Origin: an uncultured Elusimicrobia bacterium
Lineage (GTDB): Bacteria; Elusimicrobiota; Elusimicrobia; Elusimicrobiales; Elusimicrobiaceae
NCBI GenBank assembly: GCA_947306425.1
Contig: CAMZGO010000013.1
Location: 1 to 41,438, forward strand
Length of the DNA stretch: 41,438 nt
Direction of reading: 5' to 3'
The first letter of the stretch is position 1. Every line of letters starts with the position of its first letter. This document shows positions 9,224-25,874 of this stretch, piece by piece. A program made the translations under genes and the position numbers. The notes beneath the pieces were generated by a model. That model had not been told where the DNA came from, searched no databases, and saw nothing but the letters and a program-made list of their open reading frames with translations.

Positions 9224-9251
9224 TTGACATTTTTTTTTTTTTTTCTAAAAT
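9224..9251 (+). promoter_or_regulatory. Pilin promoter with a 15-T homopolymer spacer
   Basis: TTGACA at 9224-9229 is followed directly by 15 consecutive T (9230-9244), a C, and TAAAAT at 9246-9251. The spacer is 16 nt, almost entirely homopolymer. The leader then has an inverted repeat TATACGG/CCGTATA (9257-9263 and 9275-9281), and AGGAG lies 6 nt before the ATG at 9301. The second pilin gene has the same arrangement. Confidence 0.75.
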
Positions 9252-18714: not shown

Positions 18715-19380
18715 TTATTCAGATATATTACTTTTTCCTAAATTACATTTTTCACATAATGTTTGTAAATTATCTAAAACAGTTTCTCCACCTTTTGACC
18801 AAGGTTTTTTATGATCTATATGCAATACCACACTAGGATCCTTTGCAGGGGAAGCACCGCAAATACAACATTTAAAATTATCTCTTTGTAAAACTTTAAA
18901 TCTCAAACGTAAATTTATATCTCTTTTAGTTTTATGACCTGGTGCATTTTGCCCTTTATTATTATAACTTGTACCATCTTTAGAATCTTTCATGTAACTA
19001 ACAAAAGCCTTTAATGCTTTGTACCAAGAACCATATTTTCTCAAATATGCTCCACTCGAAATTCTAGATAATGTCTTGTTATTCATATCTCTTCTAGTTG
19101 GCTGTCGCCCCTTACTTACCCATACAGAAGATATATTTAGCATCAACTCATCAACAGTCCAATATTCTTGTCTACATGGGATATCGGCTTGTTTTAATGC
19201 TTTGTTCCAAGACCCAAATCGTCTACTCACTAAAGAACTACTATATTTACCATTCTCATCATAATCTTTCATAGATAAGGATGTAATATTTAATTGTTTA
19301 AATATATCTTTCAGATCTTTCAAAATTTCTTCATCATTGATCTTTTTATTTTTAATATTTAATATAAATTTCATAACCAT
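18715..19380 (-). CDS. HNH endonuclease with homing-endonuclease-associated repeats
   Basis: 221 residues. The N-terminal half carries two repeats of the type seen with homing endonucleases, each ending in a Gly-Ser-Trp turn: RRFGSWNKALKQADI and LRKYGSWYKALKAFVSY; this repeat probably binds DNA. The C-terminal part is an HNH nuclease: FKCCICGASPAKDPSVVLH, then IDHKKPWSKGG, then DNLQTLCEKCN (two CxxC pairs and the catalytic His). It should be a DNA-cutting enzyme of the freestanding homing type. It stands alone, 175 nt downstream of tRNA-Val on the opposite strand, with a weak RBS. Either ATG at the N-terminus (MVM) may start it. Confidence 0.88.
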   Translation of the reverse strand: MVMKFILNIKNKKINDEEILKDLKDIFKQLNITSLSMKDYDENGKYSSSLVSRRFGSWNKALKQADIPCRQEYWTVDELMLNISSVWVSKGRQPTRRDMNNKTLSRISSGAYLRKYGSWYKALKAFVSYMKDSKDGTSYNNKGQNAPGHKTKRDINLRLRFKVLQRDNFKCCICGASPAKDPSVVLHIDHKKPWSKGGETVLDNLQTLCEKCNLGKSNISE

Positions 19381-19669: not shown

Positions 19670-20881
19670 TTAGTTTAAACTATCGATAAGACGTTTAGGA
19701 TTGATAAAATATTTTACCTGATAAGGTTTACCAGTGGAATCTTTTACCGAAACACTATCCGCAGTTTTACGGGCAATAGAAATAAAATCTTCCATCTTTA
19801 AATTAGGTTTTGCTTGTTTTGCTAAAGCGGCCACACCTGCCAAATACGGTACACCCCAACTCAAGCCACCGGATGCATAGTAAGCATAATCACTTTCCCC
19901 TGTTTCACAAGCAGTAATTCTGTAATCAGTAGGTACCTTAATTCGTTCACTCTGTTGAAGGTAGTCCATATCATCATCCTCAAACCAATAAGGGGGGCGG
20001 GTATATGATTTTAAATTGTTCGGATCTGCAAAATATCCATTTCTGCTTACTGTCATCACATCATTTGTTGCTAACACCAAGACATTTTGCTTTTTAGCAT
20101 TTTGCAAGGCAGTTTGAAATTTATCAGAATTATTGTCTCTTTCAGAAAACCCTCTTGAAATAGATATAACCGATATTTTACTTTTTACGGGTAAGGTCTT
20201 ATTCAACTCCAAAATATAATTTATTGCTTCGGCAATTGGGGCTGCATCAAAAATTTCTTCATCATCTTCTATAAATTCAGCCGCTATAAAATATAAATTT
20301 GCACCTGGTGCTACACCTATATTTTTACCGACAGCAATAGAAGATACTGCAGTTCCGTGCATTGTACCTTCCTTTTGTTGAGTAAAATTTTTATAATATT
20401 TAACATTATTCTTATACTCTTGGTGGGAAGATAAGGGCTGATCAATAATAGCCAAACCTACGCCTTTACCTGTAATACCTCTCGCATGCAATTCTTTGAC
20501 ATTTAAACCGGGTGTTTTGCCTATTTTATTTATCTGCTCCAAGTCTAACCAATCAGGCATTGTTGAAGGCCATATTGTTTTACCATTAAAAGAAAGTTTA
20601 TTTATAATATTTTCCGGTAATTCTGTAAAATCTACGTCTGACACATCACAATATCTTATATCTATTTTGGATGAAGTTAAATCATCAAATGCGCTTTCAC
20701 AGCGTTTTTTATCTCTCATGAAATCGGAAGCAGGTTCCAAGTCATCTGAAACATATTCCTCTTTACCGGAAGAAATGCCACTTACTATATCTTGTTTAAT
20801 TTCGTTCATATCAAGATACATTCCGCAAAACAACAAACAAGCAACTAGTATGCAAATAATATAATAATATCTTTTTTTCAT
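19670..20881 (-). CDS. Membrane-anchored subtilisin-like serine protease (S8)
   Basis: 403 residues. A hydrophobic segment at residues 5-22 (YYYIICILVACLLFCGMYLD) is a signal anchor or uncleaved signal, so the protease faces the periplasm. A ~110-residue propeptide-like part follows. The S8 triad is visible: Asp147 in GLAIIDQPL, His175 in MHGTAVSS, Ser341 in GLSWGVPYLAGVAALA, with oxyanion Asn273 in VLVLATND. The serine motif departs from the usual GTSMATPHVAG (Thr to Leu, Met-Ala-Thr to Trp-Gly-Val, His to Tyr). AAGGAG precedes the ATG. Substrate unknown; it is not paired with an obvious partner. Confidence 0.9.
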   Translation of the reverse strand: MKKRYYYIICILVACLLFCGMYLDMNEIKQDIVSGISSGKEEYVSDDLEPASDFMRDKKRCESAFDDLTSSKIDIRYCDVSDVDFTELPENIINKLSFNGKTIWPSTMPDWLDLEQINKIGKTPGLNVKELHARGITGKGVGLAIIDQPLSSHQEYKNNVKYYKNFTQQKEGTMHGTAVSSIAVGKNIGVAPGANLYFIAAEFIEDDEEIFDAAPIAEAINYILELNKTLPVKSKISVISISRGFSERDNNSDKFQTALQNAKKQNVLVLATNDVMTVSRNGYFADPNNLKSYTRPPYWFEDDDMDYLQQSERIKVPTDYRITACETGESDYAYYASGGLSWGVPYLAGVAALAKQAKPNLKMEDFISIARKTADSVSVKDSTGKPYQVKYFINPKRLIDSLN

Positions 20882-20985
20882 TTTACTCTCCTTAATTTAA
20901 TTTTACTAAAAAATTATTGTAAACTAACATTTTTCTTTTATTTACACCTCCTAAATTTAGCCTAATAGAAACCGTGTTATTAACA

Positions 20986-21087
20986 TTGGCACAGTATTTT
21001 GCATTCAGAGAAGACACTCCGTAGCGAGGTATACCGATGTATCCGAGCGGAGGAGTAACGCACTATAAATGCAAAAGACGAAGCCAA
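20986..21087. repeat. Hairpin element with symmetrical ends
   Basis: TTGGC, 6 nt, TTTTGCATT (20986-21005) is mirrored by AATGCAAAA, 6 nt, GCCAA (21068-21087); ACTCC (21016-21020) pairs with GGAGT (21052-21056) inside. The core is GC-richer than its surroundings and holds GGTATACC. It could be a MITE-like or REP-like element; it abuts the terminator of the candidate ncRNA. Confidence 0.45.
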
Positions 21088-21368
21088 TAAAAAACGGCTG
21101 TGATATCCTAGGCAGATCAACGTACCCAAAATATCACAACCGCTAAGCTCCTGCCATTATAAATGGCAGGAACTCTTAAGTAAAACAGCTGGCTCATGAC
21201 TTCCAACTATATTTACTTATTATCGGTTGTTTTTGGAGTTGATCTGTTCCTTAGGTTTTCCCTAAAGAAACATCCTATTTCCTAGGATTCCAAAAACAAT
21301 TAAATCTCTTAAGTCGCTCCACTTTTGCGACTCAATTTACAACTCTCGCACACTCCTTTTACAACTTA
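21088..21368 (-). ncRNA. Candidate structured ncRNA, class not recognised
   Basis: On the minus strand, with an extended -10 (TGCTATAAT, 21375-21383) and an intrinsic terminator, a transcript of about 280 nt is expected. Helices: a 9-bp hairpin 21309-21317/21327-21335; an 11-bp perfect stem TTGTTTTTGGA/TCCAAAAACAA (21227-21237/21289-21299) enclosing two smaller hairpins (21272-21288 and 21246-21271); TAAGTAAA/TTTACTTA (21177-21184/21212-21219) enclosing a 6-bp stem; a 10-bp perfect hairpin 21149-21171; and a 14-bp terminator stem 21093-21106/21131-21144 followed by TTTTTT. A GAGTTG/CAACTC match could form a pseudoknot. I see no motifs of tmRNA, RNase P, SRP, 6S or common riboswitches. Confidence 0.55.
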
Positions 21369-21374
21369 TACTTT

Positions 21375-21383
21375 ATTATAGCA
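21375..21383 (-). promoter_or_regulatory. Extended -10 promoter of the candidate ncRNA
   Basis: TGCTATAAT on the minus strand, within TTTGCTATAAT. There is no recognisable -35 at 16-18 nt. The same extended -10 occurs at 30101-30109 and in similar form at 17586-17593. Confidence 0.5.
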
Positions 21384-25847: not shown

Positions 25848-25874
25848 ATTGTAGAAAAAAAAAAAAAATGTCAA
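25848..25874 (-). promoter_or_regulatory. Pilin promoter with a 14-T homopolymer spacer
   Basis: Minus strand: TTGACA (25869-25874), 14 T (25855-25868), C, then TACAAT (25848-25853), a 15-nt spacer. ATTTTGCTTGACAT upstream is shared with the pilin promoter at 9217-9230. TACAAT and ATTGTA further on can also pair in the leader. Confidence 0.75.

Follow-up and report, generated by a model that had tools for sequence, protein, structure and literature searches.

The stretch of DNA analysed here (the window) comprises 41,438 nucleotides of contig CAMZGO010000013.1 (GenBank assembly GCA_947306425.1) from an uncultured gut bacterium of the family Elusimicrobiaceae. On its minus strand, between positions 21368 and 21088, lies a structured RNA that is followed on the same strand by a peptidase gene, and that belongs to a family of RNAs with many copies in the same genome. 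The predicted minimum free energy of the RNA is -109.1 kcal/mol, as compared to a mean of -60.95 kcal/mol for shuffled sequences (z -8.95). This agrees with an earlier reading of the letters alone (the sequence-only reading), which had proposed a structured minus-strand RNA with an extended -10 promoter element and a terminator ending in six T residues. The plus strand of the same stretch likewise folds well (z -6.73). We regard the minus strand as the RNA strand because the promoter, the terminator and the covariation model described below fix the orientation. The RNA contains seven helices, P0 to P6 (Table 1), where the sequence-only reading had counted five.

The genome that holds the window consists of 1.44 Mb in 21 contigs, and its closest named contigs are metagenome-assembled genomes of Elusimicrobiaceae, one of them of buffalo rumen origin. 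A DNA search revealed diverged matches to the RNA in 24 of 60 genomes of this family. From these relatives and the own genome, 27 sequences were brought into an alignment (A1), on which a covariance model (R1) of 218 positions and 63 pairs was based. R1 yielded 50 matches in the own genome, or 49 after one antisense overlap had been dropped, which is a lower bound as R1 detects a shorter variant without P4 poorly. Matches were present in 81 of 90 Elusimicrobiaceae genomes and in 87 of 294 genomes of the phylum Elusimicrobiota. Fifteen of these 87 genomes belong to a distant family (f15) and have up to 26 matches each; one weak match was found in a third family. R1 is therefore specific, 207 genomes of the phylum being without a match. 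The P4-less variant (L151-L154, L164-L166 and L189) occurs in f15, in the own genome and once, weakly, in the third family.

In the model-fitted alignment (97 matches, 95 of them distinct), two-sided changes occur in 57 of the 63 pairs, so that the helices covary in relatives, a check that the sequence-only reading had named. Paired cells make up 94.0% of this alignment, whereas shuffles gave 74.5% and slid controls no more than 52.6%. This alignment is biased towards its own structure, and the barcode and antiterminator tests that follow are independent of that structure.

In each copy, the segment before the P1 3' strand (J3/1) is complementary to the terminator loop through a private pairing of 8 to 11 bp, which we refer to as a barcode. 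At least 8 contiguous Watson-Crick pairs join the two segments in 85 of 91 copies, but in only 0.55% of the non-cognate combinations. The same pairing was found in 27 of 30 f15 copies (1.1% non-cognate). Among the own copies, 44 of 48 have a cognate helix of at least 8 bp, and none of the 2256 non-cognate pairs reaches this length. The sequence-only reading had regarded a pseudoknot between a loop and the leader (GAGTTG with CAACTC) as possible. This pseudoknot is not conserved, as helices of at least 6 bp between J3/1 and the leader occur in 8 of 91 cognate cases versus 7.8% of the non-cognate ones. The conserved partner of the CAACTC segment is the terminator loop and not the leader, positions 21246-21238 of the window pairing with 21121-21113 over 9 bp. 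The idea that barcodes are selected against cross-talk was unsupported (60 of 2256 non-cognate helices of at least 6 bp versus a shuffled mean of 46).

The barcode pairing runs on into a second helix, formed by the P1 3' strand plus extension (AACAGUCG) and the terminator 5' strand (CGGCUGUU), the paired sequences in the window copy being ACAACCG and CGGUUGU. Over the alignment, this antiterminator of 18 pairs has 86.2% of its cells paired, whereas shuffles gave 67.2% and slid controls no more than 48.2%. The terminator and its alternative both covary. At columns 172 and 334, A334 is found only with U172 (8 of 8 cases); in 5 of these the P1 partner remains G, and in 4 the terminator partner does not match. 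The change therefore serves the antiterminator and not P1 or P6. In the short variants without P4, AAUAAUCG pairs with CGAUUAUU. When the RNA was cut before the terminator 3' strand, the antiterminator fold was predicted for 84 of 85 copies. For the full-length RNAs, the best fold surpasses the antiterminator-constrained one by a mean of only 4.9 kcal/mol (range 0 to 14.3; 10.1 for the window).

A same-strand open reading frame (ORF) lies behind 47 of the 48 own copies, often 25-110 nt past the terminator, with some starts more than 200 nt away. Pilin-like genes lie behind 26 of the 48 own copies, TPR genes behind 11 and SNase genes behind 4. The other 7 copies include the one without an ORF and copies that precede genes for LicD, an SNF2/PLD protein, a family-2 glycosyltransferase, an MptE-like protein, a zinc-ribbon-like protein and the S8 peptidase of the window. 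Of the 108 pilin genes, 26 have the RNA at most 500 nt upstream on the same strand and none has it on the opposite one; the 1 kb that follows a pilin motif never contained a copy. The RNA precedes every one of the 11 full-length TPR paralogues, the 5 further matches out of 16 being incomplete or remote. The targets in f15 are lipoprotein-like proteins and pilins (identified by eye), a family-8 glycosyltransferase and an EcoRI-type methylase. Since unrelated gene families, and not one toxin family, lie behind the copies, a type III toxin-antitoxin system with a tandem-repeat RNA antitoxin was rejected; nor were tandem repeats apparent in the folded window RNA, on which no repeat finder was run. 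These data also bear on the view that the terminated RNA of about 280 nt is itself the product, a stand-alone trans-acting noncoding RNA, with downstream genes served by their own promoters. The RNA's own promoter, strong terminator and complex fold would suit such a function, as would the genes that begin more than 200 nt away. However, the same-strand placement of the genes, often close to the terminator, and the TPR paralogues would then lack an explanation, and a covarying antiterminator would be purposeless in a plain noncoding RNA. We consider this view very unlikely.

As the terminator has a covarying antiterminator and a same-strand gene behind it, the RNA is most likely a 5' leader that would control the gene behind it by transcription attenuation. 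Leader transcripts would thus exist, and readthrough would be regulated. In the OFF state, P1 would close the P2/P3 domain and P6 would form, causing RNA polymerase to terminate and to release the RNA of about 280 nt. In the ON state, the emerging P6 5' strand and loop would pair with the P1 3' strand plus extension and with the J3/1 barcode; one long antiterminator helix would then enclose P4 and P5, P6 would be blocked and the gene would be read. The input might, as a guess, act on the P1/P4 region in the form of a ligand, an RNA-binding protein or RNA-RNA dimerisation via the P4 loop.

Table 1. Positions of the probable leader RNA, its parts and the adjacent features in the window.
Feature	Position	Strand	Basis
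Extended -10 promoter element TGCTATAAT (TGC-TATAAT)	21375..21383	-	sequence
Shine-Dalgarno-like AAAAGGAG in leader	21353..21360	-	GGAG enrichment across copies
P0 hairpin	21309..21335	-	sequence and fold; outside covariance model
P1 5' strand	21289..21299	-	fold and covariation
P2 hairpin	21272..21288	-	covariation
P3 hairpin	21247..21269	-	covariation
J3/1 barcode CAGAUCAAC, partner is terminator loop	21238..21246	-	cognate pairing across copies
P1 3' strand (21227-21237) plus extension, alternative antiterminator strand	21224..21237	-	covariation with P6 5' strand
P4 hairpin	21177..21219	-	fold and covariation
Palindrome UCAUGA in P4 apical loop, possible kissing-loop contact	21194..21199	-	loop palindrome counts
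P5 hairpin	21145..21175	-	covariation
P6 intrinsic terminator: stem 21142-21095, U6 21094-21089	21089..21142	-	
P6 5' strand, second antiterminator strand	21142-21125	-	fold and covariation
Barcode partner GUUGAUCUG inside P6 loop	21113..21121	-	cognate pairing
Imperfect inverted-repeat element (104 bp) in terminator-gene interval	20985..21088		arms of 26 nt, 77% complementary
Subtilase-family (S8) peptidase, 403 aa, start 207 nt past terminator	19670..20881	-	PF00082, E 5.2e-12

Several observations weigh against attenuation by this switch. Behind one own copy (C12:33263), no ORF of at least 60 aa was found, and in the window the 104-bp element separates the terminator from the gene. The full-length RNA alone is predicted to favour the terminator. 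The pairing between the P1 3' strand and the P6 5' strand is mostly conserved and not variable, and because of this conservation its length hardly differs between cognate (8.47) and non-cognate (8.04) combinations. After in silico swapping of J3/1, 190 of 262 folds retained a downstream partner for the P1 3' strand, and the barcode is therefore not the sole determinant. Moreover, the barcode segments may instead pair as a pseudoknot within the terminated state, with which such pairing is compatible.

No Rfam 15 family reached the gathering threshold for the window RNA, the window matches being three tRNAs only; tmRNA, RNase P, SRP, 6S, riboswitches, T-box, OLE, ROOL and GOLLD were all below it. 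Even at E≤10, the only matches were far below the gathering scores and none was credible. No paper describing such an RNA was found in a literature search that left aside a 2017 survey of 224 candidate RNAs. We regard the family as a new one of probable multi-copy transcription-attenuation leaders, absent from Rfam 15, that would work like known attenuators. The sequence-only reading had seen a strong candidate for an undescribed noncoding RNA class; what stands of this is a strongly covarying structured family outside Rfam 15, but not an independent noncoding RNA, since it recurs as a probable 5' leader with a covarying antiterminator. T-box and Bacillus subtilis rplJL leaders are well-known intrinsic terminator/antiterminator leaders, and large ornate RNAs are exemplified by OLE, ROOL and GOLLD. 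The latter resemble the window RNA in being large multi-helix bacterial RNAs for which RNA-RNA association is possible; unlike them, the window family is a multi-copy leader with an antiterminator and has no Rfam match. Leaders of the T-box and rplJL type resemble the window RNA in having a promoter, a structured 5' leader in which antiterminator and terminator exclude each other, and a gene behind. PMC4538822 and PMC3369936 concern leaders of this type. They differ in that the window family is without Rfam match, reaches at least 49 copies in a 1.44-Mb genome, and carries a private barcode in each copy together with a palindromic P4 loop.

The trigger of the leader could be a small-molecule ligand, in which case the family would be an orphan riboswitch class serving many accessory genes. 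Indeed, a conserved multi-helix domain is tied to the terminator/antiterminator, and one platform precedes many genes. The c-di-GMP riboswitches (GEMM) are multi-copy and known before pilin genes. They share with the window family the many copies per genome and the pilin genes among the targets, but the window family is larger, has a different architecture and lacks an Rfam match. Apart from the missing riboswitch match, the conserved residues cluster in P1 and P6 and not in a pocket-like core, P4 is of several kinds or missing, and the targets share no metabolic pathway. A ligand trigger is thus conceivable but somewhat doubtful.

Alternatively, a ribosome on a start-stop mini-ORF (an AUG with a stop codon directly after it, immediately 5' of P0) could trigger the same leader. 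In 50 of 91 leaders, GGAG is present in the 85 nt upstream (shuffled mean 13.5), and an ATG-stop is found in 18 of the 48 own leaders (shuffled 5.6, maximum 14), so a ribosome may be involved. However, the overall count for ATG-stop is 25 of 91 (9.8 shuffled), many leaders of relatives are without a start codon, and the window copy has only UUG-UAA. In addition, a ribosome at this site would cover P0 and not P1. We therefore rate this trigger as quite unlikely. Similar -10 elements were read upstream of many other copies in their printed leaders; no recognisable -35 was read upstream of the extended -10 of the window copy.

Among relatives, the copy number varies from 0 to about 50, and the window locus contains AsmA- and OmpA-like genes (named by eye) and no RNA. 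These findings, and cargo genes for a methylase, an SNF2/PLD protein and glycosyltransferases, would fit RNA-plus-gene units that are mobile cassettes, the fold mattering mainly as DNA, like a recombination site. At that locus, the relatives have other genes in place of the RNA and not a clean empty site. Yet the own copies are not recent duplicates because no two of them share a barcode, the pairs covary as in an RNA switch with a terminal U-tract, and blastn gave no phage or plasmid match. Such cassettes are highly improbable. A phage or plasmid origin was also rejected after a viral-contig pattern scan, which picked out 7 contigs with model scores at chance level (≤19.2 bits). Among the copies L126 and L130 and L117 and L122, near-identical TPR proteins lie behind different RNA copies, and similar RNAs (L117, L122 and L126) precede different genes; leaders and genes seem to have been reshuffled relative to each other.

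The P4 loop is a further recurrent feature of the leaders. A 6-nt palindrome (including UAAUUA, UCAUGA, UUAUAA, UCUAGA and UUGCAA) was found in 68 of the 73 P4 loops of 9-11 nt among 91 and 30 copies, and in 18 of 21 distinct loops of this length (shuffled mean 2.3, maximum 8). Self-complementarity is thus kept while the loop sequence varies. The remaining copies have GAUC- or AGCU-centred loops, another hairpin or no P4. In eight own copies (L124, L127, L128, L130, L131, L136, L100 and L118), P4 is replaced by a hairpin with a CCG-CGG tip and an AGUA/GAA internal loop, which we take to be sarcin-ricin-like. The retroviral dimer-initiation (DIS) kissing loop shares with the window family a long stem capped by a 9-nt loop that holds a 6-nt palindrome; the window family differs in being a bacterial gene leader with a P4 that is missing or different in some copies, and with a putative dimer. 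The loop sequences suggest kissing-loop dimers, and a DNA-level operator is also possible. It is conceivable, though unlikely, that the roughly fifty bistable switches form a network in which palindromic P4 loops would pair leaders with themselves or with leaders of the same loop class, gating the choice between terminator and antiterminator and shifting the subset of pilin and accessory genes expressed. If true, this network would be the RNA-level counterpart of the promoters of other pilin genes described below.

At least 49 copies stand before about 4% of the genes, taking an estimated gene number of roughly 1300. With the family present in two separate Elusimicrobiota families, the leaders would offer a concrete control route for the very large pilin repertoires of these gut bacteria, and private barcodes with palindromic loops would make a natural set of orthogonal RNA switches.

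Pilin-like genes with an N-terminal methylation motif (PF07963) number 108 in the 1.44-Mb genome versus 18, 39 and 76 in three relatives. That all pilins are under the RNA was rejected: among 20 pilin genes without a model match, 17 have a poly-T promoter as counted by reading the sequences, one (L189) has the short RNA variant and two have neither. Poly-T promoters, with 12-16 T residues between -35 and -10 (TTGAC..T14..TAAAAT/TACAAT), are located in the window at 9230-9251 (+) and 25848-25866 (-). A pilin motif lies at most 200 nt from 39 of the 43 listed poly-T/-10 sites, and this promoter arrangement resembles slipped-strand phase variation.

The S8 peptidase gene is adjoined by a gene for an HNH endonuclease with homing-endonuclease-associated repeats (18715-19380, minus strand), where relatives carry other genes. 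The 104-bp inverted-repeat element directly after the terminator resembles a miniature inverted-repeat transposable element, and pieces of it recur elsewhere in the genome. Lastly, 20 of the 48 copies have ATTGGC (with at most 1 mismatch) after their terminator.
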